DNA of 64,000 nt from Harmothoe impar (lineage: Eukaryota > Annelida > Polychaeta > Phyllodocida > Polynoidae): positions 42,036,281 through 42,100,280 of the forward strand of contig OX381718.1 of assembly GCA_947462335.1 (NCBI GenBank), given 5' to 3'. Numbering within the stretch: position 1 is the first letter of the stretch; every line of letters starts with the position of its first letter. The notes under the pieces are model-generated. The model was not told the DNA's origin. It saw nothing but the letters and a program-made list of their open reading frames with translations, and did not search any database. The position numbers and the translations under genes are program-made. This document shows, one piece after another, positions 1-49,412 of the stretch.

Positions 1-6
1 AAAATC

Positions 7-2024: not shown

Positions 2025-2783
2025 TTACCTATGTTCTATAAATTTAAGTTCAGGATCTAAAGTGAGGACTAAATATTTGAATTTCTCTACTTGCTCAATC
2101 ACTATACCGTTTATACTAAAAACAGGGTGAATATGGTCAACATTGTTGAAGATCATCCATTTTGTCTTATTTTCATTAACCATTAAACTATTTTCAATAC
2201 ACCAGGTTGATAATTTGACTAGAGCTGCATGTAAACATAAAGCATTTCTTACTGATATTACCGCATCATTGGCATACAAGGTGATATCATAATTATACAA
2301 ATCAGGAAGAGAATTTATGTAAATAGAGAATAAAACCGGGCCTAAAACAGACCCTTGAGGTACACCATCAGTGACCATCATGCTACTTGATGCTACATCA
2401 TTAGCAACAACACTTTGCCTTATGTTAGTTAGATAACTTTTGAACCAAGATTTTGAATTTTCGCTAAGTCCAATTTCCTGAAGTTTTTCTAAAAGTATAG
2501 AGTGTGAAACCGTGTCGAAAGCTTTCTTATAATCTAAATACAGAGCTATTGTTGGGTGATTGTTAATGGTGTTATCTATAATCTTACATAAATGCTCACT
2601 GATAGCTGATTGGGTAAAATGACATTTACGGTATCCATGCTGACTCGGAGTCAAAAGTGTGTATAAGTCTATATCGGCCTGCAGTCTATTACAAACTATT
2701 TTTTCTAATAATTTCCCAGGTATAGGTAAAAGGCTTATTGGTCTTAACTCATTAACATCAGTTGTATTTGGCTTTTTTGGCAA
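2025..2783 (-). pseudogene. LINE reverse transcriptase fragment (Jockey/CR1-like), inactive
   Basis: This is a 252-aa RT core without endonuclease. Visible are NELRPISLLPIPGKLLEK (fingers), LDYKKAFDTVSH (motif A), the TDGVPQGSVLGPVLF block and motif C. Motif C reads YAND instead of YADD, so a catalytic aspartate is lost. The frame ends abruptly at both sides: a stop follows FIEHR at the 3' side, and past 2783 the RT upstream region is not readable in frame. It lies just beyond the poly(A) of the first LINE and on the other strand, so it is a separate insertion. Confidence 0.85.
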
Positions 2784-10600: not shown

Positions 10601-11649
10601 GTGGGTCGAATGGCAGGTCTTTCTGGTATCTTATTGTATGTCTTTGCAGACATAAAGGACTTTGAAGCGCCAGTATCTAATTGCATCCGTACCTTGATAC
10701 CACCAATCGTCAACTTCTCCCACCATTCACCTTGTGGCTCTTCCCGTACTGGCTGCACTGCGTGCACTAGATGGGCAAATCCGACATCAGACTCATCACT
10801 GCTCGACTCTTCATTTGAGCGCTCGTCAACGGCATGCGCACTTTTCTTGAATGTCCTCTTGGACTTAGTGCATACCGATACAAAATGCCCCTTGCCTCTA
10901 CAGTAGTTGCAAGTAGCATTGCGTGCTGGGCAGTTGCTGTGACTCGCATCATAACCACACTTTTCACACATCTCAGATTTCTGGTTACCCTTGGGTGGTT
11001 TCTCTCTAGGTGGTGCTTGCTTCTTTTTATTTTTACCGTGCTTGTCGTGTCTGACTGCGTGGACAGCGCTGTCCTCCTCCCAGTCCAACACCTGCATAGT
11101 CTCCCTTGAGGACTCATTGCTACGACCAGATGTGATGGCCATCCGAAGGGTGAGCTCCTCCCCCTTGTCAAGGCACTTTTCTTTCACAGATGCCTGACGC
11201 ACTCCTATGACAATCACATCACGCAGCATCCGGTCCTCATGAGTGGGATCATATCCGCAGTCTTTTACCAGTACACGCAGCGCCGTGACAAAATCGTCGA
11301 ACTTTTCATCTGCCTTCTGCTTCCTGCGCAGGAACCTGGCAGTTGCTCTGATCTCATCTCTGAATGGCTTAACATAGTCCTCATATTTCTTGTACACTGC
11401 CTGTAAACTCTCATTTTCTGCTGGATCATCCCCAGTGGCCGGTAACCAGGTAAAGGTACTGTACAGCTCACGACCTTTATCCCCGATGAATGTCATTAAA
11501 AAGTTCACCTTCTCTTTCTCCGACTTCTTTGAAAGGGGACCCCCAAAATGGAATGTACAGTGTTGCTTGAACCGTTGCCACTCCCTGGACAGGTCGGTAG
11601 CCTCCCAGTTCATGGAGGGAGCACTGCCGTTGGAGTAACTTTCTGCCAT
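7615..11649 (-). CDS. gag-pol: Gypsy gag-pol polyprotein, 1344 aa, intact
   Basis: A single frame fuses gag and pol. Gag occupies roughly residues 1-270 and ends with a zinc-knuckle region: a variant CX2C element near 228-240, then a canonical CX2CX4HX4C at 247-260. The aspartic protease has DTGAS at about 325. Reverse transcriptase spans about 485-650, with LPFGIKSAP and the catalytic VMDD at 593-596 (a variant of YIDD). RNase H starts near D742 (CDASG) and ends near DALSR at 849-853. Integrase has an HHCC zinc motif (H952, H955, C985, C988), catalytic aspartates near 1016 and 1069 (TDNGPQF) and glutamate near 1103. A GPY/F-like module lies about 1213-1245. No frameshift separates gag from pol. 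The C-terminal 90 residues are Pro/Ser-rich with no recognised domain. No env ORF follows. Confidence 0.96.
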   Translation of the reverse strand: MAESYSNGSAPSMNWEATDLSREWQRFKQHCTFHFGGPLSKKSEKEKVNFLMTFIGDKGRELYSTFTWLPATGDDPAENESLQAVYKKYEDYVKPFRDEIRATARFLRRKQKADEKFDDFVTALRVLVKDCGYDPTHEDRMLRDVIVIGVRQASVKEKCLDKGEELTLRMAITSGRSNESSRETMQVLDWEEDSAVHAVRHDKHGKNKKKQAPPREKPPKGNQKSEMCEKCGYDASHSNCPARNATCNYCRGKGHFVSVCTKSKRTFKKSAHAVDERSNEESSSDESDVGFAHLVHAVQPVREEPQGEWWEKLTIGGIKVRMQLDTGASKSFMSAKTYNKIPERPAIRPTKRVYLSYTQHPIPLLGSAVFRVCWKSQEIEVKFYITEQDQSTLLSGAACTELGLIKRIHAVDRGIDKYPELRSLTGTLPGVYSLKIDPTVRPVVHGNRRPSHSMREKVVSKLKEMVADGHIAKVKEPTDWVSSMVVVEKKDKIRICLDPRDLNKAIRREHYPTPAVEDIVASIPDAKVFTVIDAKSGFLQIKIDYESSLLTTFNTPVGRYRWLRLPFGIKSAPEIYQRIMDAMLEDIPGAYAVMDDILVAGRDESHHDSIRAKVVKRATEWNLKLNFEKCQVKKSSVKYVGHILSSEGLQIDPDKVEAVRDMPRPQTKEDVRRFLGFLQYISKFIPNLSDIDAPLRELTKKDSDFVWEEPEQCSFDKLKDLCCNAPVLAYYDVRKPVRIQCDASGYALGGVLLQEDRPVAYTSRALTSTEKGYAQIEKETLAIVHSCKKFHHYVFGKEVLVESDHKPLQSIFKKPILAAPMRLQMMMLRLQPYDLNVCYVPGKDIPMGDALSRANLPGEQEDIEHIVVNMVNFIAVTPTRYRSFQEATADEMNELYHLILKGWPDTKEQVPHSVRVYWTNRDELAVSDWIVYKGMRIVVPPSLRPEMLSQVHESHLGITKCKQRAREALYWPGMSQQIEDLVSDCAICNTFQNKQPAETMRPTPTPQRPWQEAASDIFEWKGENYLLTVDYMSKFIEVDKLADMSSETTKETLMRQLATHGLPDVLRTDNGPQFSSQAFRKYCAEKQITHVTSSPNYPQSNGEAERAVQTVKRLWAKSSDRAQRYMALLDYRTTPMESCGLSPAQLSMGRRPRNMIPIATELLDPKQIDMQEVRKALDQSKRSQKHYHDAKHPRDLPPLQVGDPVRMAPFPGTKRWVPATIVRHHEQPRSYIVDREGHKYRRNRRHLRLATHKANSFGASDELTRPNVTPSPTMDVIPQQPVVPMPSLPSPKPLSPKKATHPTVDSPMGVLPIPAGGEGSVHSEGAQYRTSSGRLSRPPRRLDL

Positions 11650-31116: not shown

Positions 31117-32589
31117 ATGGGACGTAAAGCACCAAAGACACCGGCTAAAAAGCCCGAGTCTGCTCAGCCTTCGGCCCTACCTAAGGTCACCAAGAAAACA
31201 ACACGCTCTGCTACTAAAACTGCCACCAAGACTACGCCAAAGACGGTCACGCCATCGCCAACAGTACAGGTCCCGGTGAGTCCGTCTTTGGAAGATAAAG
31301 TCGCTGATCTGGAGTCACGAGTGAAAGGAGTAGAGTCTAAAATCGATACGAGCACTAACACTATCATGGCCCGTCTGAATCAAGCTCTACCCTTAGCTCA
31401 GGTCCCCACGCCTATAGACCTGAATCAACTCGACATCCCCCAGCTAGATTTGACGGGCGTTAATGTTGACACCCACGCCGGCCAAGATCAAAGCGCTGCG
31501 GGGAAGGCGCCGCCACGTGCGTCAGCCCGGGCCACATCCAGGCACGCGCCCTACGGCGTGCCTGCGACAACGTTGGCGCCAACGCCCACGCCCCAGTCTG
31601 CCACGCGACCGGGGGACCACGTGGCGCCCACGCGCCAGCCACGTGCTACTCAAGCCTCTGCGGCCTGCGGATCGGCGGCACAAGCCTACGCCGCCCAGCA
31701 GCCACCGACACACGCAGACAACATCTTTGAACTCTTCGCTGATGCTGTACCAAGACCTGATCCCTCGGTGCCACAACATGGCGCTCTCCCTCTCTCCATG
31801 GCGGAGGTGGACGACACGGCACTTGGGGAAAAGGTCCAAGTTCTGCTCAACAGCGCACATCAACTCTCCGGCATGAAAGGTAAAAACACTCACCCCCACC
31901 AGTATATATTCCGTGGCCCTGACAGAATTAAGACGTCACTAAATTCTCTCAATGAATTGGAATACATCTACGGCCTGTACAGGCTCCTCCTTGATCCTAA
32001 AACCCCCCTCGCTGATAAGCCTAAAATAGCTAAGCATATTGTCCATGTTGCTGAAGACGGGGCGGAGTATAAATGGGATCAGGTGAGAAACTGGTCTGAG
32101 GATCTTCTAACAAAGCTAGCTGACGGCCGCTTAAAATGGTCCGACATATTAGAAATACACTCCCTACGCTATGGCACTGCCCGCAATGCTATAGGCCTAC
32201 GATATCCGTATGGAATGGTCTCTGTCGCCCACCCTCCACCTAATGCTGCCTATGCCGCTCAAAATAGGCCTACGCAGTCTATGACCTCAGGCGCTGCTTA
32301 TCGCTCTCACCAGCCCACGAGGCACCAGCACTCAGCAGCTCAAGGTGCCCCCACTGAAGTTAAGCGCCAACAACAACGCCCTAAGCAGCAGCTCAACAGG
32401 GCAGATGTGGCATGTCTGGCCTACAATTCACAGACAGGCTGCACTAAGCCCGACAGCCACCTGGAGGCAGGCAAGCCTATGGGCCATCACTGTGCTTGGT
32501 GTCGTGCAAACCTGGGGAGGGTACATCTTCACACCGAGTATGCATGCCGCCTGAAGGATGAACCTTTCAATGCCCCCTTTCAGGCCTAG
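31117..32589 (+). CDS. Ngaro-like ORF1, gag-like protein, 490 aa
   Basis: The N-terminal 50 residues are Lys/Pro/Thr-rich and basic. A short predicted coiled coil follows (SLEDKVADLESRVKGVESKI), then a long Ala/Pro/Thr-rich linker (about 125-215) of higher GC than the rest, and a folded region about 230-400. Near the C-terminus is a Cys/His cluster (CLAYNSQTGC, then HHCAWC and HTEYAC, about 435-482), comparable to zinc-binding motifs at the end of DIRS/Ngaro ORF1 proteins. It probably packages the element RNA. The start codon sits 36 bp after A1. The last 32 bp overlap the next ORF in another frame. Confidence 0.85.
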   Translation: MGRKAPKTPAKKPESAQPSALPKVTKKTTRSATKTATKTTPKTVTPSPTVQVPVSPSLEDKVADLESRVKGVESKIDTSTNTIMARLNQALPLAQVPTPIDLNQLDIPQLDLTGVNVDTHAGQDQSAAGKAPPRASARATSRHAPYGVPATTLAPTPTPQSATRPGDHVAPTRQPRATQASAACGSAAQAYAAQQPPTHADNIFELFADAVPRPDPSVPQHGALPLSMAEVDDTALGEKVQVLLNSAHQLSGMKGKNTHPHQYIFRGPDRIKTSLNSLNELEYIYGLYRLLLDPKTPLADKPKIAKHIVHVAEDGAEYKWDQVRNWSEDLLTKLADGRLKWSDILEIHSLRYGTARNAIGLRYPYGMVSVAHPPPNAAYAAQNRPTQSMTSGAAYRSHQPTRHQHSAAQGAPTEVKRQQQRPKQQLNRADVACLAYNSQTGCTKPDSHLEAGKPMGHHCAWCRANLGRVHLHTEYACRLKDEPFNAPFQA

Positions 32590-34669
32590 GCCGGCCCATA
32601 CCGGCCTACCTGAACTAGCTCACACTGCGGCTGATGACTCCTGCTTGCCCATCGACTCTCACTTGAAAGGAACATTTATGCTGACACCACATCAAGTCAA
32701 CGTTAAAAGCCTTGAATTAACTGTCAGTAATTGTAGTAACATTGACCCTGTCTATAGTGTATCAGTTGCAAACAATACTGCCCCTAGGCCTAGCGCCACT
32801 CGCCCTGCATTGGTCGACCATCAGGTGGTAGCAGTTAAACCGCAGTTGGGCCTAGGCTATAAATATGACATGGGTCCTGGCGTACATGTTCCCTTGGACT
32901 TTGACCCAACTTTCTGCCTCCCAATTCCCCACCGGGTAGGCCCTTCTCCACGAGAGTTTGCTCCAGTTAAGAAGGCATATTGGCCTGCACTGAATCCAAA
33001 AGTGTGGTCGGACTACCCACAGTATGCATTGTTGTATTCAGCTGCCACTGATACATGCTTGCCAAACAGGCTGGGGGCTAGGCTCACAGTCCCCTCTGGC
33101 CTCAACATTAGGAACTGGAGGGCGGCCCTGGAGGGATACCACGACACCTACCTGTGTGATTACTTGGAATTCGGCTGGCCGGTGGGCTATACCTCACCTG
33201 CCCCACCCCAGTCTGCAGAGAAGAATCACGCGTCTGCTGAAAGGTATCCAAAACAGTTGGATGAGTTCATAAAGAAAGAACTCCAACTTGGTGGCCTACT
33301 GGGCCCCTTTGACAACCCATCCTTTGTACCATGGACTCATGTCTCACCCCTCATGACGGCGCCAAAGAAAGAGACAGATGCAAGGCGGATTATTCTTGAT
33401 ATGTCCTACCCAGTGGGCCAAGGGGTCAATTCAGGCATATTGAAGAATGTAATAGACGGGGAGCATCGACCATACACACTCCCGTCTATTCAGGACCTGT
33501 GCACTAAGGTGCTCATCCTGGGTGGTGGCTTCATGTGGAAATCTGATCTCTCCAGAGCTTATCGCCAGGGCCGATCAGACCCAGGAGACATGCCTCTGTT
33601 GACCTTCAAACATCAAGGTCGAATCTACATAGACCTGACCCCACCATTTGGGTGTAGACTCTCGGCCTCAGCCTGCCAACGCATGACAAATGCTATGGTT
33701 TACCTCCTCGCCAAAAAAGACACATGGGCTTTGGCCTTTCTGGACGACTTCTGTGGGGTGGCTTCCACCCTGGAGGAAGCCACCAAAGACTACAACGCCT
33801 TCCTGGCCCTTACGGCCCACCTAGGAGTCTCCCTCTCCAAAAACAAGTGCACCCCACCCACAACTACTCTTGAATGGTTGGGCTTCAAACTCGACTCAGT
33901 AGCACTAACACTGACAATCCCACACACCAAGCTGGCTGAGGTGGTTCAACACTGCCAAGAGTGGTTGCACAAAAAATGTGCAACAAAAAAGGATATACAG
34001 TCGCTGGTGGGCAAGCTCGTCCATATCAGCAAATGCATTCCCCCGGCGAGGCGCTTCATTTCTAGGATCCTAGACACTCTCAGAATTGCGCCGGACATTG
34101 GCACCACCTGGCTGTCAAATGCCTTCCGGGCTGATGTACTCTGGTTCTGCACGTATGCTGCTAAAGCAAACGGCCTTCACCTTCTGTCCCCTCCAAGGCA
34201 AGAGTTCTCTATAGAATGTGATTCATCGCTGGAAGGGGGAGGTGGAAACTCAAATATAGGCTACTACCACCTCACATACGACCGGAACTTCAAAAAGGTG
34301 TACAAGGACATAGTGCATAGGGAGGCAGCAAACCTCCTTATTGCCTACAGAACCCTTCTACCTCCTGTGACACAAGGTATGCACATAGTCATCTACACGG
34401 ACAACATGGGGTCACAGAGTGCACTCCACACAGGCAAAACCTCAGACAAAATCCTAGCGGCCTGCGCCAGGCAGCTGTGGGTGGAGGCGGCGATACGAGA
34501 CCATTCCATACAGATCTCCCACAAACATGGCTGTGACATCCCCCTAGCTGATGCCCTCTCCCGCCAGCACATACCTGAGATGGTAGTCAAAGCTGCGGCA
34601 ATGGTGAAGGCTAGGGGTCTTAAAAAAGTCCAGCATGTGTCCCCTCACCCGTATTTCACGTGTATATGA
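32558..34669 (+). CDS. Ngaro-like reverse transcriptase / RNase H, 703 aa
   Basis: The RT covers about residues 240-450: PLMTAPKKET, ARRIILDMSYPVG, SDLSRAYRQ (motif A aspartate about 330), TPPFGCRLSASACQ, and motif C FLDDF at 394-398, the LDDF form typical of DIRS-order elements. RNase H follows with catalytic acidic residues near D554 (IECDSS), E589 (HREAANL), D615 (YTDNMGS) and D665 (PLADALSR). The ORF ends about 35 residues after RNase H, so no methyltransferase is attached. The N-terminal 150 residues have no recognised domain. The start overlaps the end of ORF1, and the stop TGA shares bases with the ATG of the recombinase ORF (ATGA at 34666). Confidence 0.93.
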   Translation: MNLSMPPFRPRPAHTGLPELAHTAADDSCLPIDSHLKGTFMLTPHQVNVKSLELTVSNCSNIDPVYSVSVANNTAPRPSATRPALVDHQVVAVKPQLGLGYKYDMGPGVHVPLDFDPTFCLPIPHRVGPSPREFAPVKKAYWPALNPKVWSDYPQYALLYSAATDTCLPNRLGARLTVPSGLNIRNWRAALEGYHDTYLCDYLEFGWPVGYTSPAPPQSAEKNHASAERYPKQLDEFIKKELQLGGLLGPFDNPSFVPWTHVSPLMTAPKKETDARRIILDMSYPVGQGVNSGILKNVIDGEHRPYTLPSIQDLCTKVLILGGGFMWKSDLSRAYRQGRSDPGDMPLLTFKHQGRIYIDLTPPFGCRLSASACQRMTNAMVYLLAKKDTWALAFLDDFCGVASTLEEATKDYNAFLALTAHLGVSLSKNKCTPPTTTLEWLGFKLDSVALTLTIPHTKLAEVVQHCQEWLHKKCATKKDIQSLVGKLVHISKCIPPARRFISRILDTLRIAPDIGTTWLSNAFRADVLWFCTYAAKANGLHLLSPPRQEFSIECDSSLEGGGGNSNIGYYHLTYDRNFKKVYKDIVHREAANLLIAYRTLLPPVTQGMHIVIYTDNMGSQSALHTGKTSDKILAACARQLWVEAAIRDHSIQISHKHGCDIPLADALSRQHIPEMVVKAAAMVKARGLKKVQHVSPHPYFTCI

Positions 34670-35655
34670 TATGTCTATGTGTTACAGATACCCCTCTAGG
34701 TCAGCAGACTCTCACCTCCATCAAAGCAGCACTGACTGAACAGACGTCAACTAACAAAGCAAGGCAGGCTGAATACTACCTAACGTTCGGCCTAGCTTAC
34801 TGCATAGACCTACTAAATCCCTCCATTGTGGACTCCTGCAATTTTATGCAATTTTTGGCTAACTCTCTTGACTCCCCTCAGTCGAGGAAAAACTATGTAT
34901 CTGTGGCTCGATCCTGGATCCTGGACAGGGGAGGTGACCCATCCAGCCTCTCATCTCGGTCAGCCAAGTATGTGCAGAAAGGAGCGACGAGGCTGACGAT
35001 CTATACTCCAGCCCCGGCCCCCGGTCTAGAACCTGCTCACCTGGTCCAGGCGTGCTCCCTCCTATCACAGATACCAGAAGGCCCAACCTTAACAGCAGCC
35101 ATAACTATTGGGTACTTTGGATTCCTGAGGACGTCAAACCTCCTCTCCCCTACAGCGACACTATGGGGTGGCCCTCACACCTTAAAGCGCCGAGATATCC
35201 TGCTACACCCACAAGGCCTTGTGGTGATCCTGAGGTCGTCAAAGACTATCTCGGCGACGGGCCACCCAGTGGTATTATCTCTACCTCGCGTCACTGCCTC
35301 TCCAGCCTGTCCTACTAAGGCCTGGGAGACCTACATAAAGACTGTCCCCGGTGAGTTGGATAGCCCGGCCTTCCTCCTATCTACGGGCCTCCCTCTCACT
35401 ACTCACAACATGGTGGACATGCTGAGACGAGCTCTCATCATCATAGGCTGCCCCTACGCCCAGTCAATGTCCTCCCACTCCTTAAGGCGCGGGGGCGGGC
35501 TGGCAGCTCAAGCAGCCGGTGCTGAAAGGGATGACATCAAAGTGCATGGGACCTGGAAATCTGAATGGTCCATGTCAACATATGTCCCGTCTCAGCCCAC
35601 GACAAAGGTTGCCCAAGCTATGGCAACCCTCTTTGCCTCTCCAGCCGTGGTCTGA
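34666..35655 (+). CDS. Ngaro-like tyrosine recombinase, about 329 aa
   Basis: The C-terminal catalytic domain shows the phage-integrase signature: Arg in FGFLRTSNLL (about 157 counting from 34660), Lys in RSSKTIS, H-x-x-R in SSHSLRRGGG, His in VHGTWKS and the nucleophilic Tyr in SMSTYVPS. The N-terminal part resembles a SAM-like core-binding domain (YYLTFGLAY to NYVSVARSW). It should integrate a circular cDNA through strand exchange instead of using an integrase. I place the start at ATG 34666, which overlaps the preceding stop as ATGA; the in-frame GTG at 34660 is less likely in a eukaryote. The ORF ends inside B1. Confidence 0.93.
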   Translation: MICLCVTDTPLGQQTLTSIKAALTEQTSTNKARQAEYYLTFGLAYCIDLLNPSIVDSCNFMQFLANSLDSPQSRKNYVSVARSWILDRGGDPSSLSSRSAKYVQKGATRLTIYTPAPAPGLEPAHLVQACSLLSQIPEGPTLTAAITIGYFGFLRTSNLLSPTATLWGGPHTLKRRDILLHPQGLVVILRSSKTISATGHPVVLSLPRVTASPACPTKAWETYIKTVPGELDSPAFLLSTGLPLTTHNMVDMLRRALIIIGCPYAQSMSSHSLRRGGGLAAQAAGAERDDIKVHGTWKSEWSMSTYVPSQPTTKVAQAMATLFASPAVV

Positions 35656-38365: not shown

Positions 38366-38774
38366 ACTATTTTCACCAATTAGGTGTTACAGAGAGATTG
38401 ACTAGCATGCAGTTATATTCTCTTATTACATATATACTTGAATTTTATAAGTACCAACCAGCGATATAATAACCTAATATGAATACTGTTCTATTTTAAG
38501 AGATATGTATATTTCTTAAAAATGATGAGTAAAATGTGATGTACCTACCTATTGGTACATATAGAACATGCAGATGTCCATGTATACAGGTGCAGCATGT
38601 CGACTCCCCTCTATTACCTACAGCCAAATGTGGGTTGTGCCACATATAGGTCAACCGGTGTCTTAGTAATAGGGGTCAGCCTCACACCTGGCTGGCTTTC
38701 TAACAATAGCTCACCTGTGGGTGCAGATGAATGGGCAGGAATTACTAAAAAAGAATAGATCTTTAGTGTTTCCT

Positions 38775-39300
38775 GTACATTTTGGCGCTATAGTAAACTA
38801 TATTAAATTTTACTATAGTTCACTGCAGTTTGCTATAGTTAACTGTAGTATTTCCTGCACGCTCCGGCACTATAGTAAACTATAGTAACTTTTACTTTAG
38901 TATACTGTAGTTCACTATAGTTTATTGTAGTGTTTACTGCACACCTTGAAGCTACAGTAAAATATAATAATCTTTACCTTGACACTATAGTAAATAATAG
39001 CAATTCTTACTATGGTTTACTGTAGTTATTGTAGTTTACTATGGTATTTCCCGCTCACCTTGACATGCTTAAGACAATAGTAAAGTATAGTTATTTTTAC
39101 TACAGTTTACTTTAGTAATTCCTGCGCACCTTGACACTATAGTTAACTATATATTATTCTTACTATAGCCTACTGTAACTTACCTATAGTTTACTTAACC
39201 ATTTCTTGCACACCTTGGCCTGATAGTAAACTATAGTAATTTCACTATAGTTTACTATAGTAGTTCCCGCACACCTTGATGCATCATATTAAACTGTAGT
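38775..39300. repeat. CTATAGTAAACTATAG-type array (second block)
   Basis: Units of about 90-100 bp recur, each with a CCTG(C/T)(A/G)CACCTTGACACTATAGTAAACTATAGTAA-like phrase and palindromic CTATAG cores. Confidence 0.7.
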
Positions 39301-39614
39301 ACACATGGACAGCCAAATGAAGAAGTAAATCTTTAAATTGAGGTCCTAGACTTTTCAGTGATATTATAGGAGATACCATTTTTGAGAACAGTGCAGCTCC
39401 TTCTTCGACTTTACCCAGTTTTCTCCTGGTCTACCCAGTTCCAATGTTGTCTAGTTTTCCCCCTGGCATTCCAAACCAAACATGATGCTGCTGCTCTGAA
39501 CTGTCTATAAAAAGGGGTGATGTGGTAAGAAAACTGCTGGAAAATTCCCAAAGGAATAGCAAAGAGAGCGAGTGGTTCAATGTGCCCAGGTGGCCAACGT
39601 GCCCCTCTCTCCCC

Positions 39615-39835
39615 TACTATAGTCAATTACAGTAAACTATAGTAACTAATAATATAGTATAACATAATCTGATGGTGTTTTAGGAAATACTACAGTACAC
39701 CATAGTATACTTTAGTAAACTGCAGTACAGTATGCCCCACTGTAGTATAGTAAACTATAGTAAACTATGGAATAATACAGTTTACTGTGGTTTACTACAA
39801 TAAACTATAGTATTTACTATAGTATTTTTCTAGCT
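39615..39835. repeat. CTATAGTAAACTATAG-type array (third block)
   Basis: Same motif family, ending GTATTTTTCTAGCTGGG. About 310 bp of unrelated sequence separates it from the second block. Confidence 0.65.
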
Positions 39836-41344
39836 GGGCATGAATCCAAGGTAATTTCACAAAAATGTATACTAGTAGATAAAAGTGTTTACAGCAACAC
39901 CAAAAATAGATAGTTTGTACCACAGAATCATTATCTAATGTCTGGTAAGGCAGGTATGATGTCATAATGATTTTCCATGTAATAATGAGGAACTCTCTAA
40001 TGGTCATGAAAAAGTGTGACGGGAAGGGTCGACTTATGGTGAATCTACCCTACTGGATATAGTATAGGCAGTGGTCGCACGGGCCATATGCCCGGGTTTA
40101 TTTTTGGATTTGAGATGTCAAGGCGTGGCAATCCTGTTTATTCACACAGTTCCACAATTACACGTGTTCTAGGGCAAAGGATACCTACATAGTACCATAC
40201 GGTTCCAAATACGGTATTCTCTTTATCAGACGAGTTTATAAATGGTGTATTATCAGCAGAGCCTGCAGGGCGAGGCTGACAATTCACCATTCATACATGA
40301 GTCTGAAAAAATATATTTGGGACAAGTATGGTGGTGGATATATCATTGCTCGGCTACAATTTAGTCTCTATTTAGTTGGAGGGTGGACATTGAAGGTGAA
40401 TACAACTATTTTTTTATTACCACAGTGTACTGTAGCCGGCTCTCTCTGTTGTGATGTATCAAGCTTTCCAAGCTATGATAGACATAATGTTCCCTTGCCA
40501 ATTAGAATTTTACCAATTTCTTATAGAGAGAAATACATAATGCGACTACGGTTGTGCATTAAGAAGAGAAATCAGTGGTAGCTAACATGTAAACTAAGCT
40601 CTGTGCTATTCTTTGACACCAGCCAGAGGTAATTGAATTCAACTATCTATAAAGTAATAGTTTACATATGGATTCATCCTTATCATATCAATTAAGTCAT
40701 CTAAAAAGATTTGAGATTGCTTTTTATTTACCATACCCAATATGGATAATATTAATTATTTAAATCTATAGTCTTTTAAGGGTTCTTAATTCCAGATACC
40801 CCTTGAACTAATTTTTTTAAGTAGATTTATTGACATATCTCATGTAATACAAACATGTTCTTCCGAAATTGTCATAAAGGTGTGAAAAGGAATTATAATA
40901 TTATGTACAAGCGGTTCTTGTTTGGTACTTAGCCATTTTCAGCTTACTGTCTGTGTGAGCCGTATAGCGCTCGAGTTCATGAATAGGTATAGTACCATAG
41001 GCATTTTAATTGTACTTAAATTATAGCAGTTGGCTGGCATGTCCTTGTAGCATGTTACACATGCAAAGTTCGGAGAATTGACTTATGATGATTTATCTAT
41101 TTTAAGTAATACTTTCAACAACACACATAATGTCTTTGTGCAATAAAGCATGGCAATGATTGGAGCATAAAGTTGTGCAAGCAACTTAGGGGTGACTGCA
41201 GTCATTTTTAGCTAAGTCCTATAATTACTTTCGTTAGCTCAATTTATAAACATTAAACTAAGTGTAGGGACTATAGACCATTTGTCACAGTGTCATTGAT
41301 ACTTCCAGGTCCACTTATAACTTGAAGTGACATAAATCTCACGT
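39836..41344. other. intergenic, upper part probably 3' UTR of the LINE
   Basis: No gene recognised. The part next to 41345 should be the 3' UTR of the LINE on the minus strand. I found no poly(T) marking its end, so the 3' boundary of the element is unknown. Confidence 0.35.
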
Positions 41345-44248
41345 CTACTTCACGGTAAACGCTAGCTTCTTAAAAGAAGTCATTGTGTCAGCTTTCTGAG
41401 TGGCGTCCGTTAGTTCATTCCATTCGAGCATGCCTCGGTATAGAGGGCTGCTGCGGTATTTTTCACTTTTTGGTCGCTCAACCACGAGGCGTATTTTGTT
41501 GTCGCCGCGAGTCCTAGCTCGTCTCGTGGGGTTGACTGTATTTTGCACTTCCCGGCTGTGCTTATACATAGCACATAGTAGGTGCTTCTTCCTTCTAGTC
41601 TTCAGTCGTTCGACCTTGCATACCCGGTGTAGTTCATTCGTTGATACCTCTCGGCGCTTCTTCCTCATACATATGCATAGGCATTTATTCTGAGCAGTCT
41701 GGAACTTCTTTATCAGCTTTGAAGGTCCCGACTCAATAATGATATCGCAGTATTCCATTATTGGTACTATACATTGTTTATATATCGATATAGCATCAAT
41801 CATATTGATGTTGGGTCTCACTCTCTTGAGTTGTTCAGTTTTGGCTGTAGTCTGGTGTAGGCTTTCCTCGAGATGACCCTCGAACCTCAGTTCACAGTCG
41901 AGCAATACTCCAAGATATCTATATTCGATTACCTCTTCTAAAGGTTGGTCTCCTATGTGGAGTGCATGACCTAGAGTCAGGTCAATCTTCTTATCCGAGG
42001 CAAACCACATGTACTTGGTCTTTTTAATGTTCGGGGTCAACCTGTTTGTGGAGCACCAAGTGATGACTGAGTCCAGATCTAGTTGGAGATTTCTGCACGC
42101 TATCTCTGGATTCTTGTGTTTGGTTACTAAAATCAGGTCATCCGCGTATAGAAGTACAAAACTGTTTGTCACATATTCTGGTAAGTCATTCACGTAGATG
42201 AGAAACAGGACCGGTCCCAGTATACTCCCCTGAGGGACGCCGTATGAGACCTCTTCAGGGTCGGATCTCACATTGTTTGCCAGTGTGGTGCATTTTCGGG
42301 TAGAGAGGTAACTTTGTAGGAATTCCAGCGCACCTACTCCCAATCCTATGTCTTTTAGTTTCCTCATCAGCCTTCCGTGGTGGACGCAATCGAATGCTTT
42401 CTTTACGTCCAAGTATAGTGCTAGGGCAAACTCACCCTTGTTCCTAGCACTAAAGAGCATATTTACTATCTTCAGGACTGCCATAGCAGTCGACCTGCCC
42501 GGCATGAATCCATATTGTACTTCTGTGATGATCTCATTCTCTTGCAAGTAGGTCATCAGTTCTCTGTAAATCACTCGTTCCAGCAGCTTACCTATCACAC
42601 TGAGCAGTGTTATAGGTCTCCAGTTGAGTACAGACCGTGGTGATCCAGGTTTTGGTAGTGGTATTATAGTTCCGTCTTTTAACAGTCTAGGGAAGCAATT
42701 GTGTCTTATACAGGTGTTGATCACAAGGGTCCAGTGTTCAATATTACCTAGTAGGGTGTCCTTGATCACATGTGTTCGTATATCTACCATACCCGAAGAT
42801 TTGCCTATTTCAATTTCCTCGATATGGTATTTCAGTGATTGACTGGCAATTTCATCTATGTTCAGTCTAACGGGGTCATGTGCCCCGGCTGCGGGCTGTC
42901 GATTTTGTTCATCTATGGCCTCTGTCAGTGCCTCGCCGATTTGGTAATCCCCAGGTAGATGAGCTAACTGTTCTGCTAGTACTCCGCCTATACTGCAAAA
43001 ATACTTATTGATGTAGTTCGCTGTCTCAGCTGTGGGGACATGTCTAGCAGTTGTTTCATCCAGAAGACTGATGGTTTGTGTCTTCCGTTTACCCTTCCAG
43101 ATCTCGTTCAGCCGCGCCCAGAACTTTTTTGGGTTCTTTTTATATATGCGTAGTTGTTCTTTGATGATCTTGGACTTGTTTCTTCTTACTTTCTTGTCCA
43201 CGCTATGTTGTAACTTTCTTACTTCTTTTAGGTGCCTGGTTTTCTCTCCGGCGTGTCTGGCTGCCAGTCTAAGGGCAACTCGTCGTTTTTTGATGTCTCC
43301 CCGTACTTCGTCGTCAAACCATGGCTCCTCCTCTGTTGGTATTTTCATTTGCTTGATGGGGCATTTTTCATCAAGGTAACTTTTGACACCAGTAGTAATG
43401 AACTCGATGGCCTCTTCAGGATGTAGCGATTCAAGGGCTTCAATTGGAACATTGTTGTTAATACTAGCTATCAGGTCGTCCTTTTGGTAGTTTTTGTATG
43501 ATCTACCTGTTATTTCAGTACGCAAGTGTTGATTCCGGATTTTTTTGTAGATGGCATATATCGGAATGTGATCACTAATATACTCCACCATATTCCCTGA
43601 CATTGTTGCCTCAACATTGGTGTATATGTGATCAATAATTGTCGCTCCTTTCTTATGTAACCTTGTTACTCCAGTCCTCAACTGATGTAGATGGTGTTTC
43701 TTCAGGAATGCACTAGTCTTTTTATACTTAGCGCTGTTTCGTTTTTTGAAGTCCACATTCACATCACCAAGTATCCAAACGTCCTTATCCGTTAATGGAT
43801 TATTGTCCAGTATTGATGTTAGGCTTTTGTAGAATGATTTAACATTACCTTTCGGTGGTCTATATACCGAGACAACAAGTCTATGTCCCGAGGTTGGACT
43901 CGTGGTGCATAATGTTACCGCCTCGATATCCTTTGTAGACACGCACAGTTCCTCCAGTTTGACAGTGTAGGGGGCATGCTTATTAGAGACATAGCATGCC
44001 ACCCCGCCGCACTTTTTGTCAGTCTTGTGTATTAGGCGGTCTTGCCTAAAAATTGTCATGTCACGGAGGTCCACTAAGTGATTTGGGAGGTCAGGTGTCA
44101 ACCATGTTTCACTAACTGCTAGGTAGTCACACTTTCCCAACAGTTTTTGTACTTGGTCAACTTTCGGGACCAGACTCCTTATATTATAACCAATTAGCTT
44201 TAGTCCTTTAGTCTTGCACAGCTCCTCATTCGTCAGGAGAGAAGACAC
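41345..44248 (-). CDS. LINE ORF2: AP endonuclease plus reverse transcriptase, 967 aa, intact
   Basis: Residues 1-235 form an exonuclease/endonuclease/phosphatase-fold domain: YNIRSL near 21-26, SETWL 46-50, VYRPP, GDVNVDF 161-167, IDHIYTN and SDHIPI 225-230. This domain nicks target DNA. A linker of about 250 residues follows. The RT spans about 505-760: PKPGSPRSVLNWRPITLL, YGFMPGRST, LDVKKAFDCVHHG (motif A), YGVPQGSILGPVLF and the active site YADD at 701-704. The C-terminus (SSPLYRGMLEWNEL) resembles that of the LINE at 1-1962. There is no RNase H. Length and layout fit CR1/Jockey-type elements; clade assignment needs a tree. The product acts in target-primed reverse transcription. The start chosen is the first ATG, 16 codons before the endonuclease block. 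Confidence 0.95.
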   Translation of the reverse strand: MSSLLTNEELCKTKGLKLIGYNIRSLVPKVDQVQKLLGKCDYLAVSETWLTPDLPNHLVDLRDMTIFRQDRLIHKTDKKCGGVACYVSNKHAPYTVKLEELCVSTKDIEAVTLCTTSPTSGHRLVVSVYRPPKGNVKSFYKSLTSILDNNPLTDKDVWILGDVNVDFKKRNSAKYKKTSAFLKKHHLHQLRTGVTRLHKKGATIIDHIYTNVEATMSGNMVEYISDHIPIYAIYKKIRNQHLRTEITGRSYKNYQKDDLIASINNNVPIEALESLHPEEAIEFITTGVKSYLDEKCPIKQMKIPTEEEPWFDDEVRGDIKKRRVALRLAARHAGEKTRHLKEVRKLQHSVDKKVRRNKSKIIKEQLRIYKKNPKKFWARLNEIWKGKRKTQTISLLDETTARHVPTAETANYINKYFCSIGGVLAEQLAHLPGDYQIGEALTEAIDEQNRQPAAGAHDPVRLNIDEIASQSLKYHIEEIEIGKSSGMVDIRTHVIKDTLLGNIEHWTLVINTCIRHNCFPRLLKDGTIIPLPKPGSPRSVLNWRPITLLSVIGKLLERVIYRELMTYLQENEIITEVQYGFMPGRSTAMAVLKIVNMLFSARNKGEFALALYLDVKKAFDCVHHGRLMRKLKDIGLGVGALEFLQSYLSTRKCTTLANNVRSDPEEVSYGVPQGSILGPVLFLIYVNDLPEYVTNSFVLLYADDLILVTKHKNPEIACRNLQLDLDSVITWCSTNRLTPNIKKTKYMWFASDKKIDLTLGHALHIGDQPLEEVIEYRYLGVLLDCELRFEGHLEESLHQTTAKTEQLKRVRPNINMIDAISIYKQCIVPIMEYCDIIIESGPSKLIKKFQTAQNKCLCICMRKKRREVSTNELHRVCKVERLKTRRKKHLLCAMYKHSREVQNTVNPTRRARTRGDNKIRLVVERPKSEKYRSSPLYRGMLEWNELTDATQKADTMTSFKKLAFTVK

Positions 44249-44760
44249 GAACTGTTGTCTTCATTTTCAACTTCATTTCGACATATGTGTGTGTTTATCC
44301 GATTATCATGATGGTTGTGTACATGAGTGGCCAGCCATGACCGTAAAATAATAACATACAGAAGTGCAAAGTGCAAATGAAAAGTGGTCCTAATGCGCAT
44401 TTTTGTAGTGGGCAGAAGGGGTGATCCTAGTCGGATTGCCATAAGTGGCGTCGCAGACTAAGGTCACAGGGGGTGTGTGCAGGTGTGTAGTCAACAGTGC
44501 ATTAAAGTTCTAAATGTAGTCCTAAAATGCGGACTAATCTCACTGTTCCAAATTCTCGTCCTACTAGGTAGGTCTTCTTTGATATATAAATAGACTTCCT
44601 AGAGGTGTCCTCGGGAAGGCGCGTCGCACGAGTGACAGATAGTTCTTATTCAGCAGTGTTTTGTATAGGGCTCCCACACTATAACTTGACTCGAATGGAT
44701 ATTCCAATACAATATTTGTCCTTGGCACTGTGTAATCACAGTTCTACGTCAAAGTAGTAA
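44249..44760 (-). other. leader region upstream of LINE ORF2
   Basis: No ORF with recognisable content. A 69-codon frame (44233-44442) is unsupported. Confidence 0.35.
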
Positions 44761-45564
44761 ATAAATCAAGAGTCTACACTAGGCTGTAGTCAGCCTCACG
44801 TGTTATATGCGAAATGTGTCCCATTTCATCATAGAAGAAAAAGTAATAATTCCAATTTGTTGGCTCGAGTAATGTGGAATACATTTCAACACGGTCACTA
44901 GGCTGTGTTCAGCCTCATATGGTGCATTTACACCTTTGTTTAACTCAGATCACCGGTTGAGCCTCAGGCGGTACATATATGCTTTTGTTTAAAACAGATA
45001 GCCAGTCGAAAGACACAGTGGGAATAAACTTATTCACTAGGCTGTGGTCAGCCTCACGTGATGGGTTGCACTTGTATTGGATTTTATCCCAGCTTGTCAT
45101 CTCTGGGTCACAGTTTATTTACTTGTAATCCTAGTGCTTTTCACCGGTATCCTTTGTGATAAATAAATAAATCAAGAGTCTACACTAGGCTGTAGTCAGC
45201 CTCACGTGTTATATGCGAAATGTGTCCCATTTCATCATAGAAGAAAAGTAATAATTCCAGTTTGTTGGCTCGAGTAATGTGGAATACATTTCAACATAGT
45301 CACTAGGCTGTGTTCAGCCTCATATGGTGCGTTACACCTTTGTTTAATTCAGATCACCAGTTGAGCCTCATGCGGTACATATATGCTTTTGCTTAAAACA
45401 GATAGCCAGTCGAGAGACAAAGTGAGAATAAACTTAATCACTAGGCTGTGATCAGCCTCACGTGATGGGTTGCACTTGTATTGGATTTTATCCCAGCTTG
45501 TCATCTCAGGGTCACAGTTTATTTCCTTGTAATCCTAGTGCTTTTTACCGGTATCCTTGTGATT
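44761..45564. repeat. tandem duplication, two units of about 405 bp
   Basis: Unit 1 begins ATAAATCAAGAGTC at 44761 and unit 2 begins with the same phrase at 45167. They stay aligned for about 400 bp with a few substitutions and 1-2 bp gaps. Each unit carries three hairpins at matching offsets. Confidence 0.9.
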
Positions 45565-45886
45565 GAGGCAGTTAAATAAAGATAAACATAGTAATCACAA
45601 TGGTGGGTAGGCAGGCTGTGGTCAGCCTCACCATGATATAGTTAGCCTCACTAGGCTGTAGTCAGCCTCACACGATGGGAATTTCATCAAGCTGTAGTCA
45701 GCCTCACAGGGCTGTACTCAGCCTCACACGACGGAAGATTCAGGTTACTAAGTTCCATCAAAGCATATAGAGATAGTAATATTCAATATTCACTAGGCTG
45801 TGGTCAGCCTCACGGTAGAGCTTGTTACACATGTCATGGTTATCATAAGCACATGAAGAGCAGTGGTAGTAGGCTGTGGTCAGCCT
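44781..45886. repeat. array of about 12 hairpins with constant stem and variable loop
   Basis: AGGCTG-NNNN-CAGCCT hairpins start at 44781, 44900, 45039, 45187, 45305, 45443, 45613, 45653, 45690, 45709, 45795 and 45871. Loops vary (TAGT, TGTT, TGGT, TGAT, TACT) while stems stay nearly fixed. Most are followed by CAC(G/A). Some copies sit inside the 405-bp duplication and others outside it, so the motif multiplied independently. Confidence 0.85.
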
Positions 45887-45966
45887 CTTCATTGGATCTT
45901 TGGCCAATCAGGTCATGATATCCAATTACAGCGGGCTAGGCCTACCTGTAGCTTCTACTATTAGAC

Positions 45967-46674
45967 TTATTGGTGAAGGCCCTGGGCAATGTTTTTATCA
46001 ATGGCATTTATTAGTAGTTTCTGTAGAACCATTGCATCAGAGAGTTGCGGGAATTTTCCGTCCTTCAGGATAATAGAGCTGTTTAAGTAGCCTTCACCAT
46101 TTTTGTGCTTCAAAGTGAAGCGCTCCAAATATGGCGTCTTGACATTATGCGCATTATTCATTTGCATAATATGCCGATTGATATTCAATATTGATGCATC
46201 CAGTTTTGCTTGCTTGATGTAATCATACTCGCCAGCAGTGGAGACCGCCAGTTGAGCATTAAACATTGTGCAGATTATTAATGGTACCACAGGCCGTTGT
46301 GAATCCTCAAAATAATCACTTAGCGCATTTTTCATGGTTTCCATTCTTGCACTAACTTGGGTGATCGTTTCCTGAACTGTGCTGTATTTCATACTCAACA
46401 CCCCGGTGACAGCATCAGTATTGACAATGTTATTGATACCACAGCTGAAGTAGATAGCGGTAGGGTCCCTTCTTGTCACCTTGTCGAGCATGTGTACGGT
46501 CAACAGTTCAATGTTAGAGTCAGGCAGCACAATAACTTCACTCACATGTTCACAGTCGCGCGGTACCGTCCATGTTAGGTGCCGTAGTCGACAGTCGCTG
46601 AATATAATAACTTTGTCCATGTTTATGGCTTCCAATACACCGTGTCTTGTGTTTACAATCCAAATTTCGTGCAC
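45967..46674 (-). CDS. SGNH-hydrolase-like protein, probably catalytically altered, 235 aa
   Basis: The pattern follows SGNH/GDSL esterases. KVIIFSDCRLRHL (21-33) sits where block I (GDS) is expected, YFSCGINNIV (75-84) where the block III GxND is expected, and LKDGKFPQLSD (203-213) where the block V DxxH is expected. Between them is the usual alternation of strands and helices. The nucleophile position reads Cys rather than Ser, the Asn-Asp pair reads Asn-Asn, and the His of block V reads Phe, so ordinary esterase activity seems unlikely. SGNH-type domains occur in ORF1 proteins of several LINEs and in some Ngaro elements, which suits its place between two LINE ORFs. It begins 277 bp after the stop of the NADAR-like ORF. 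Family assignment rests on pattern only. Confidence 0.55.
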   Translation of the reverse strand: MHEIWIVNTRHGVLEAINMDKVIIFSDCRLRHLTWTVPRDCEHVSEVIVLPDSNIELLTVHMLDKVTRRDPTAIYFSCGINNIVNTDAVTGVLSMKYSTVQETITQVSARMETMKNALSDYFEDSQRPVVPLIICTMFNAQLAVSTAGEYDYIKQAKLDASILNINRHIMQMNNAHNVKTPYLERFTLKHKNGEGYLNSSIILKDGKFPQLSDAMVLQKLLINAIDKNIAQGLHQ

Positions 46675-46951
46675 GATGTTTGGTTTCCGGTGCGCTGGTG
46701 CCCTGCGGTGGCGGTGTAGAACCAGCTCAACATAGAGCCGGACATGCGGCGCCGATCAGCTGATCCGGCGTCTGGCTGCCGGGGGCGGGCAATGGGCGTT
46801 CAAAAGGATGCCTAATTATATTTTAATTCTGTATCGAACCCGCCTCTCGGGGTTCTGTGGAATTATATGTAAATTGCAGTGGGGATTAATACTGATACAT
46901 TAAACAGTTTGTTATATCATGAATTTAGTGAATTTAGTGACGGTGGAGGGC
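46675..46951 (-). other. spacer between the NADAR-like and SGNH-like ORFs, with GC-rich palindrome
   Basis: Contains the palindromic core CGCCGATCAGCTGATCCGGCG (about 46750-46770) and no ORF. It could host an internal initiation or translation signal, but nothing specific is recognised. Confidence 0.4.
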
Positions 46952-49201
46952 CTAATTGGGGCTTGGTTGTATTTCTTCTCTGATTTCCTTCAGAATGATC
47001 CCAAGCATATTTCTGCCAGTGTAGTAACCTTCGTCATAGCATGCTGCGTCGTAGGCACCTCCACCCCCCCAGAAGTCATGTTCACACGCAAAAATCAGAT
47101 CGTTTGGTGCTGAGTTTAGGAGTGCAGTTTTGCTTTCTGTGTTGTGAGTGAACTTTATCCTTTGTACTCTTTTCATGGTTGGCAACTCTTCCTTGTTCCA
47201 GTGCCTGTCGGGTTTGACCTGATTTTGTCCTATATTAAAAGCCTCCAAGCCAGTTTTCGATCGTTTTATGGCATTTTTGATGTCCTCACTAGCTGAGTTC
47301 TTGGTTGCTCGTATACTTTGGAATAGGTGTTCTGCACTTGCATAGGTTTCACCTTCATAGTGTATCAATTGCAGCTTGAAGGGACTAAAAATAGATAGGT
47401 CACCTGTGAAGCATAGGCCCGCCGGTGTCGTTTTTTGAAGAACCTCTAGTGTTGGTGGTACTGTGGCTGCTTCTTGTTGTTGTTGTTGTTGTTGTTGTCT
47501 GCCAGGATATCTTTGTCTCGGAGGAAGCCTCTGAAATTTGTAGCCAATTGGGGGAGTCAGTTCTGCAGGAAGTTTGTTCATGTCCTCTATTGGGTATTCA
47601 GTGTTGTTGAGTACAAGTTTGTCCTTCCTGATGGTTGCTTCCATGTTTTGGTGTCTACAGTAGTTGAGGATTAGACGTAGGCGTATGTTCTTCTTTCTGG
47701 TCTCTGCGTCTTCATCAGGGTTGACATATACGTCATTCCATTTGTCATTGCCTCTGTTCAAATCCCATTTAGCTTGTAGTACTTCCCTCCGTCTTTTAAT
47801 GGTAGTAAAGCATATTAGCATTGTCCTAGGGCCTTTTTGGTTTGTGCGTCTATCAAGTCTAACCACTAGGGAGAATTCACTGAGGGTCACATTTACTTTC
47901 AGTCTGGCCATCAGTTTAAGGGCTTCATCATAAACATCTTCATCACTCCTTTCCTCCATACCGTCGACCTTGATATTTAGGTATCTGGGTGATTTATTCT
48001 GTTCAGACCTGTTCAAGTCTCCTAGTGCAGGTTTCTGCTGTGCGGCCGTATCAGATGTAGCTTTCAGGTCAGCTTCCAGCTGCATCTTTAGTTGCTTCAT
48101 TTCTTGCTCGAATTCCTCCTTTCTTTTGAGAAGTTCAATCTCATGTTCTTGTCTTTTGAGGGTGAGTGCTGCTTCATATTCTTGTTGTTTCCTATGAGTT
48201 TCATTCTCATAGTCTACTTGAGTCTTTTTCAGACTGGTCTCTTGTAGTGCAATCTTTCTATCCGTCTCAGAGGTATGCTCAGCCAGGCGTTGTAATATAT
48301 AGGACTGGTTATTCCTGATGTGCTTGTCAGTTTCAAATTCATGGTCATTAATCCTAGTAATGGCCTTTTGGTGGTTTTCCTTAGATAGTTGGGAGATTGC
48401 TTCTATCTTTTTTGTAGTTTCAGCATTGGTAGTTTCCACCGATGTACGTAACTTATTTACTTCTGACAGCATGGCTGATTTACTGTCGTCGACACAGGAG
48501 TGCATTTTATCAGTAATATTATTAGAGAGTGCTGTAAAGAATGTTTTCATGTGTTCAAAATCCGACGTTTTGTCAGTTTTCTGTGCCTTTTTGGTAATTT
48601 TCTTTTTCGGCTTGGATTCACCTTCTGATGCATTGGCAGATGCTCCAGCATCCTCCTCCAGCTTTTCAAGATTCAATTTCTTGGTCACCTGTTTAGCAAG
48701 AGGAGTGTCATCACCACTACTAGAATGCATTCTTTTGTTGCTTGCTGCTGCGGGGGTTTTGGACCTACCTCCTCCTCTAGGTCTACCTCTGCCTCTTTTG
48801 GCTGGCTGATCTAGTAGTCTTGCAGGGGAGCGTGAAAAGTGTCTCAATCTGTTTACATCAAGTCTAGAAAGAGATCTACTTTGGGTATGCCTTGTGGCCG
48901 ATCTAGGTTTCCTCCCTTGAGATAAACTGACATTTGTTGTTATTTCATGTCTAAGTTGACCGTTGTCGGTCACGGATGGCTGGCTGCTAGGAATGTAACT
49001 GCTTTTGACGTTGTCGTCAACATCTTCATATTCGCTGTCTGAGCTAGCGTCACTAGTAACAACAATAGGAACTGTAGTGGTTACCTTGGTTACGTCGATT
49101 ACACCGTTTTCGGCGTCAGTGGGTCCGTCTTTGGGCGAGCTGTCAGTTTGTGACGGTGCGGCAGGGAGATCCCCATTGCTTTGTTGTGGTACAACTGACA
49201 T
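46952..49201 (-). CDS. LINE ORF1-like protein with coiled coil, RNA-binding region and C-terminal NADAR-like domain, 749 aa
   Basis: Domains in order: acidic/Ser-Thr-rich N-terminus (1-95); basic region with an AT-hook-like RGRGRPRGG (136-144); Lys-rich stretch about 196-206; long charged coiled coil (about 215-390, with HRKQQEYEAAL and RKEEFEQEMKQ heptads); an L1-ORF1p/Transposase_22-like RNA-binding part (about 405-545: YLNIKVDGMEE, VVRLDRR, PRTMLICFTT, NIRLRLILNY); a Gln tract (569-576); and about 597-745 a NADAR/YbiA-like domain. NADAR hallmarks seen are ASAEHLFQSIRA, a Trp before KEELPTMKRV, KFTHN, HDFWGGGG and GRNMLGIILKEIRE. NADAR enzymes cleave N-glycosidic bonds in NAD/ADP-ribose or riboflavin-precursor metabolites; here the role is unknown. 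The start sits in GACGCCATGT, a fair Kozak context, and the ORF is unbroken. Confidence 0.85.
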   Translation of the reverse strand: MSVVPQQSNGDLPAAPSQTDSSPKDGPTDAENGVIDVTKVTTTVPIVVTSDASSDSEYEDVDDNVKSSYIPSSQPSVTDNGQLRHEITTNVSLSQGRKPRSATRHTQSRSLSRLDVNRLRHFSRSPARLLDQPAKRGRGRPRGGGRSKTPAAASNKRMHSSSGDDTPLAKQVTKKLNLEKLEEDAGASANASEGESKPKKKITKKAQKTDKTSDFEHMKTFFTALSNNITDKMHSCVDDSKSAMLSEVNKLRTSVETTNAETTKKIEAISQLSKENHQKAITRINDHEFETDKHIRNNQSYILQRLAEHTSETDRKIALQETSLKKTQVDYENETHRKQQEYEAALTLKRQEHEIELLKRKEEFEQEMKQLKMQLEADLKATSDTAAQQKPALGDLNRSEQNKSPRYLNIKVDGMEERSDEDVYDEALKLMARLKVNVTLSEFSLVVRLDRRTNQKGPRTMLICFTTIKRRREVLQAKWDLNRGNDKWNDVYVNPDEDAETRKKNIRLRLILNYCRHQNMEATIRKDKLVLNNTEYPIEDMNKLPAELTPPIGYKFQRLPPRQRYPGRQQQQQQQQEAATVPPTLEVLQKTTPAGLCFTGDLSIFSPFKLQLIHYEGETYASAEHLFQSIRATKNSASEDIKNAIKRSKTGLEAFNIGQNQVKPDRHWNKEELPTMKRVQRIKFTHNTESKTALLNSAPNDLIFACEHDFWGGGGAYDAACYDEGYYTGRNMLGIILKEIREEIQPSPN

Positions 49202-49386
49202 GGCGTCGGCCTTGGGCGTCCGGTGCAGAAATAAAACCGCTCGTATGGTCTCCAGTTTGACTGTTGTCAGTCACAGTCGGTAGGTAGACTAAGCACACAG
49301 TCTAATATAAATAATCCTTGTTAAAGTTTGTTTGAAATAATCCTCCTTATTTGGTAAACCTTGTTAATGTGGGAGCCCGGTTGTGT

Positions 49387-49412
49387 TGACGTCTTTTACT
49401 CGCGCATGCGCA
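49387..49412 (-). promoter_or_regulatory. CRE half-site and NRF1-type palindrome upstream of the NADAR-like ORF
   Basis: TGACGTC at 49387-49393 is followed by CGCGCATGCGCA at 49401-49412, which fits the NRF1 consensus. They lie about 190-210 bp upstream of the minus-strand start at 49201, a plausible TATA-less promoter position. Confidence 0.45.

Follow-up and report, generated by a model that had tools for sequence, protein, structure and literature searches.

The window, meaning the whole 64-kb stretch of Harmothoe impar DNA analysed here, lies on contig C18 of a 1.51-Gb genome and contains an intact-looking three-ORF LINE on its minus strand (40812..49393, 8582 bp, with a candidate 5' end). 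ORF1 (46952..49201, minus strand, 749 aa) comprises a charged, probably coiled-coil part at about residues 215-385 (48047..48559, read by eye from the translation), an RRM and C-terminal domain (CTD), probably of the LINE-1 ORF1p type, at residues 400-560 (47522..48004), a Gln tract at residues 569-576 (47474..47497) and a NADAR domain at residues 593-745 (46967..47425). It is followed on the same strand by a middle ORF of 235 aa (45967..46674; 217 aa from the ATG at 46620) and by ORF2 (41345..44248), which encodes an endonuclease in its first ~245 residues (Exo_endo_phos_2, E 3.2e-9, by Pfam) and a reverse transcriptase (RT) at residues 532-781 (RVT_1, E 4.4e-33). The minus-strand spacer between the middle ORF and ORF2 holds an array of 12 RNA hairpins (44781..45886) with a CUG-ANYA-CAG core and a varying outer stem, as well as a 404-bp tandem duplication (44758..45563, 95% matches).

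With an ORF2 of endonuclease and RT, a poly-A end and 5'-truncated copies, the element is an APE-type non-LTR LINE, and no LTR-like pair occurs among the 20 families listed of the 39 repeat families in the window. Its 3' end is the poly-A at 40812. This is backed by a second, 5'-truncated copy on contig C7, which begins at window position 46423, carries an ORF2 98% identical to that of the window and ceases to resemble the window LINE at the same poly-A point (40811/40812); its two end pieces are 96-97% identical to the window LINE. The candidate 5' end was set at 49393 by similarity, where GACGTCA...GGGCTCCCAC resembles, by eye, the common 5' start of three members of a related family (L025, L031, L035). 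These three are >98% identical in their aligned pieces, lie at different genomic sites and also have their 3' end in common, ahead of an A/T-rich run. Provided that the 5' end is placed correctly, the 5' UTR (49202..49393, minus strand) is 192 nt long and holds no ATG before ORF1. No convincing target-site duplication flanks the window copy; a possible one of 6 bp (ATAGCG, by eye) is seen at L031.

ORF2 (start 44248, minus strand) has no in-frame ATG ahead of the endonuclease domain. Nor is an early ATG present in any of the 9 open ORF2 frames retained by the filter from 21 elements (~6 distinct families), which suggests that translation may begin at a non-AUG codon, by reinitiation or in some other unusual way. 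The middle ORF probably encodes a degenerate SGNH protein: Lipase_GDSL_2 matches two of the 12 members scanned (from 16 intact copies; best E 2.7e-4), Gly63 and Asn66 are invariant, and the Ser nucleophile of the GDS motif is mostly absent. In CR1/L2-type LINEs, an esterase reportedly forms an SGNH domain of ORF1. Like the esterase described for non-LTR retrotransposons (PMC3905857), the middle-ORF product is LINE-encoded and probably SGNH-type; unlike it, it occupies a separate ORF between ORF1 and ORF2, and its Ser is not conserved. Searches for relatives of ORF1, ORF2 or the middle ORF on viral contigs gave no confirmed case, and Rfam returned 0 matches at gathering thresholds within the window.

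The ORF1-NADAR fusion and its relatives in the genome

The NADAR-like domain of the original prediction was confirmed by profile and by fold comparison with YbiA. The window domain scores 70.5 bits against PF08719 (curated cut-off 35.1), and the assignment agrees across Pfam, NCBIfam, PDB sequence and fold, the latter being YbiA-like. TIGR02464 is barely over its own cut-off, and the structural model is of low confidence (pLDDT near 50) over the loop with F704-W711 (model ~120-146). For the preceding RNA-binding part, originally described as L1-ORF1-like, comparison by fold gave a weak match and comparison by sequence none. The top three Foldseek rows for the RRM/CTD are all human LINE-1 ORF1p, and the match is collinear (2ykp, 2w7a), with weak E-values; human ORF1p itself has no NADAR. 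A sequence relationship to LINE-1 ORF1 was rejected after 15 members gave no Pfam match, and an ORF1 profile built from 15 members retrieved no known ORF1 from the PDB (best E 0.022, CUGBP1 RRMs). The best reading is a LINE ORF1 protein, made up of a probable coiled coil and a probable LINE-1-type RRM/CTD, that gained NADAR at its C-terminus.

A search of the same genome with ORF1 (the best 60 of 5510 first-look candidates being scored) yielded 77 matches that merge to 60 loci, 56 of which carry a NADAR match in the same search. The remaining four were considered as ORF1s without NADAR and rejected as such, each being followed on its strand, 116-242 bp further along, by a NADAR domain in a separate frame (211-233 aa). 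A middle ORF accompanies at least 33 of the 56, a lower bound because 45 of 138 middle-ORF matches were used in the comparison. Twenty loci were fetched (L022-L041, the ORF1 matches ranked 2-22 minus row 18, which is L019), and all 20 carry, on a single strand, the ORF1 CTD followed by NADAR, endonuclease and RT (in L037 the RT match spans 44 residues), with a full or partial middle-ORF match between NADAR and endonuclease in 18. The fusion recurs in other copies, as the original prediction requires: NADAR shares the open frame of the ORF1 CTD at 20/20 fetched loci, and in L019, outside this set, it lies in another frame. The unit has also been mobilised. PF08719 matches at E<=0.01 in all 21 rows formed by the window and these loci, several copies have stops or frame breaks, and an ENA contig (P0001) supplies a further member with the ORF1-NADAR fusion.

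Among the best 47 of 22825 ORF2 relatives, 22 have an ORF1-NADAR match upstream, and 19 have neither an ORF1/NADAR nor a middle-ORF match there in the lists compared. Two of these 19 (C5:44507749 and C1:99226496) do have a NADAR domain in a further comparison, and the other 17 may be truncated or lack NADAR. In the direct search with PF08719, all 150 scored matches (the best 150 of 3484 first-look candidates) pass the Pfam cut-off, many of them within open frames of 400-1300 aa. The four top-scoring matches (150-178 bits) are one at C19:3415138 and three clustered at C21:30057793-30084570, and these four are perhaps host genes.

Catalytic positions and constraint on the protein

Residues were counted over 23 LINE rows (the window, L019, L022-L041 and P0001), of which 20 are distinct over the last 150 residues. 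The positions of YbiA E48, W89, W133 and N143 are kept in all 23, and K55 in 22, the window copy having Arg. The YbiA E125 position is Phe in every row. At the D130 position, counted back from W133, 18 rows have Glu, four have Asp and the window copy has His. E125 and D130 are both invariant in 121/121 reference rows, a set biased to YbiA-like proteins. In the window, E624, W668 and W711 are thus retained, F704 replaces the YbiA-family Glu and H708 occupies the D130 position. Active-site conservation extends to the first Glu and the Trp residues and breaks down at the conserved Glu of the YbiA subfamily, where the LINE clade departs from the reference set (Phe 23/23 versus Glu 121/121). The gapless comparison of LLESTLHPFWG in L048 with LIFACEHDFWG supports the change from Glu to Phe.

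The same position varies among 12 further NADARs of this genome, being Glu in eight (L044-L049, L051, L052), Leu in two (L050, L054), Lys in L053 and Phe in L055, with the position in L049-L055 counted back from Trp in short pieces. This variation indicates that the acid is replaceable in a fold that is itself retained. L048 and L053 each share a frame with an ORF1 match, and L055 has one next to it. The short-frame match at C19:3415138 (L044, 178 bits) retains the canonical Glu, as do L045-L047, which may belong to other mobile elements. A tree of 31 NADAR rows unites the 16 Phe-bearing LINE rows in a single group (100/98), with the ORF1-joined L048 next to it (94/79); long branches are frequent among the rows, and the tool cautions on such joins.

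Several published enzymes indicate what the loss of this acid could mean. E125 touches the distal ribose in the Phytophthora enzyme, and changing the structurally equivalent D171 of the E. coli C7 NADAR to Ala or Asn abolishes efficient guanine de-ADP-ribosylation; conversely, E173 of C7, the catalytic Glu suggested by alignment of the superfamily, is described as dispensable for cleavage of guanine-ADP-ribose (PMC11543638). Four E. coli/phage NADAR subtypes and a myxobacterial YbiA are reported to cleave guanosine-ADP-ribose in vitro (PMC11125620).

Synonymous divergence between NADAR copies is far ahead of amino-acid divergence (L023/L026, dN 0.058 and dS 1.62; L038/L040, dN 0.204 and dS 1.33; L034/L036, dN 0.111 and dS 1.97). 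The ratios are rough because only three NADAR pairs fall in the usable range of 0.05<dS<1.5 (median 0.147). NADAR divergence resembles that of the RNA-binding domain and the RT, and the middle ORF changes faster than NADAR in diverged pairs that have both (middle-ORF dN 0.405 in L038/L040). Low dN against saturated or high dS points to constraint on the NADAR protein.

Possible roles of the NADAR domain

The kept pocket, the lost acid and the constraint together argue for a ligand-binding role on the LINE ribonucleoprotein (RNP) rather than for decay. We therefore favour, at a probability of roughly 0.45, a LINE NADAR that would bind an ADP-ribose-type ligand without efficient hydrolysis. The original prediction had offered counter-defence, modification of nucleic-acid ADP-ribose or use of the fold for binding as possible roles; with the subfamily Glu replaced by Phe in all 23 rows, canonical catalysis finds no support, and binding fits better than de-ADP-ribosylation. 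Under the favoured reading, ORF1p would coat the LINE RNA, and the NADAR pocket would still recognise ADP-ribose or an NAD-derived group while no longer hydrolysing it efficiently. The domain could then act as a reader or shield on the LINE RNP, masking or docking to ADP-ribose marks placed by host PARP/ART enzymes on LINE RNA, the RNP or chromatin proteins. That the ligand would be ADP-ribose is suggested by homology, and the link to host PARP/ART immunity would follow by analogy with RNA viruses and with the restriction of retrotransposition by ZAP, which is PARP13. NADARs are described within polyproteins of animal RNA viruses (PMC9503650), and ZAP is reported to restrict human retrotransposition (PMC4441479).

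Against a binding-only domain, the acid retained at the D130 position in 22/23 rows could support altered catalysis, the alignment-suggested Glu is dispensable in C7 (PMC11543638), the loop is weakly modelled and TIGR02464 remains above its cut-off. In the strongest alternative, NADAR would have kept its activity as N-glycosidase or ADP-ribosyl hydrolase by a rearrangement of the catalytic residues (E624 together with the acid three positions ahead of Trp), and would strip ADP-ribose from LINE RNA/cDNA or host proteins as a counter-defence. We consider it possible but on the unlikely side. The E48 equivalent is kept in 23/23 rows along with the acid at the D130 position, the canonical Glu persists in other NADARs of the genome including the ORF1-joined L048, and the tested bacterial and phage NADARs cleave guanosine-ADP-ribose (PMC11125620). 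The NADAR-bearing polyproteins of animal RNA viruses (PMC9503650) also fit, as does the polymerase protein of Ingleside virus, an RNA virus, which is among the best viral fold matches. Nevertheless, the acid needed in the E. coli C7 NADAR (PMC11543638) is Phe in every LINE row, and the window copy has His at the D130 position.

A role unrelated to ADP-ribose is more doubtful still. Here, NADAR would be an RNP assembly module that binds, for example, the hairpin array of the element or host RNA-processing factors. Nematode SNA-3, a protein with three NADARs, is reported to join the SL1 snRNP to the cap-binding complex (PMC9303266), and the array does lie on the same element as NADAR. However, the pocket residues are kept, and arrays occur in L038-L041 of the 20 loci while NADAR occurs in all 20, so the array is not a general NADAR partner.

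The 12 CTG-ANYA-CAG hairpins of the window lie in the spacer on the sense strand, and the remainder of the 64 kb has none on either strand. L038 and L039 have 13 each and L041 has eight, some of them upstream of ORF1 and the others in the spacer (421-619 and 4038-4474 in L038). One ANYA hairpin each occurs in L025, L031 and L035, and the other 14 of the 20 loci have none of this type; among these, L040 carries seven similar hairpins with GT/GC loops (CUG-G[UC]NA-CAG). On the opposite strand, the ANYA pattern matches once each in L038, L039 and L041 and not in the rest; the opposite-strand rows of another scan repeat those of the sense strand and do not serve as a control. Among 21 distinct hairpins, three outer pairs covary, with 24 cells changed on both sides, a number reached by 0/500 shuffles. 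One position shows GC, UA, AU and CG pairs, and across six pairs 96% of cells are paired. Two of five covariation measures do not beat the shuffles (double-change pairs, 372/500 as high; pair types, 252/500), and the fourth, outermost pair is unpaired in 18/21 rows. A separate shuffle, which permuted two-base blocks, is crude. The CTG/CAG core was imposed by the search pattern and the outer stem was not, and the hairpins of one element are kin by descent, so that the counts are not independent. The loop resembles the ANYA hairpin to which MS2 coat protein binds. We guess that the array may be a recognition or packaging signal.

An artefact, that is, a host NADAR gene beside a LINE by chance or a one-off decayed insertion, would find some room in the high-scoring short-frame NADAR matches that are perhaps host genes (C19:3415138, 178 bits), yet chance fusion and misassembly are ruled out by the 20/20 loci, P0001 and near-identical copies at different sites, which leaves this explanation with next to no weight.

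To return to the ligand-binding reading, a broader and speculative proposal, improbable in its entirety, is that in a whole radiation of LINEs an ADP-ribose hydrolase became a pseudoenzyme that reads ADP-ribose, fixed to the RNA-coat protein. The Glu would have been lost more than once (to Phe, Leu and Lys), the RNPs would exploit or shield host ADP-ribosylation, and the CUG-ANYA-CAG hairpins of one subgroup would be a self-recognition signal.

Relation to published NADAR proteins and elements

The ORF2 motifs GVPQGSILGP and YADD are presumably unlike those of the L1/Tx1 group, and the window clade may therefore differ from Tx1. This bears on the nearest published parallel. The original prediction knew of no described LINE of this type, and this needs correction: in Repbase, several Tx1 LINE families of Crassostrea gigas are noted to have ORF1 proteins that appear to be YbiA-family NADARs, for which RNA processing was offered as a role (PMC12477816). 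The likeness to the window LINE, a NADAR-bearing ORF1, was judged by that description. The literature matches listed contain no other published NADAR in a LINE, and none was found for NADAR combined with "non-LTR". What goes beyond the published passage (PMC12477816) is the architecture, the survey of copies, the evidence on selection, the loss of the catalytic residue, and the middle ORF with the hairpin array.

A known LTR retroelement has likewise captured a NADAR domain, in Pol, whereas that of the window LINE is in ORF1. E. coli YbiA, an N-glycosidase (2b3w), shares the fold, E48, W89 and W133, and the LINE domain differs from it by Phe for E125, an extra insert before GxN (C-Y in most copies) and the fusion to ORF1. 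The NADAR of Phytophthora nicotianae with ADP-ribose (8bau) lacks an ORF1 fusion and has E125. SNA-3 is another animal NADAR in RNA biology, unlike the LINE domain in being a non-mobile host protein with three NADARs (PMC9303266).

In RNA viruses and phages, NADARs are interpreted as countering the ADP-ribose signalling of the host, and the retention of such a domain by the coat protein of a diverged LINE group suggests that retrotransposons, too, are affected by ADP-ribosylation. Since Glu, Phe, Leu and Lys occur naturally at one catalytic position within one genome, reader and eraser are directly testable with purified domains.

The window also holds other mobile-element sequences. An open 1344-aa frame at 7615-11649 (minus strand) encodes RT, RNase H and integrase of the LTR-retrotransposon type, and three consecutive open frames at 31117-35655 (plus strand), with RT in the middle one, look DIRS/Ngaro-like by eye. 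Additional RT frames lie at 1-804 (plus) and 2025-2783 (minus), and palindromic ACTATAGTAAACTATAG-type repeats occupy 38764-39900, beyond the 3' flank of the LINE.
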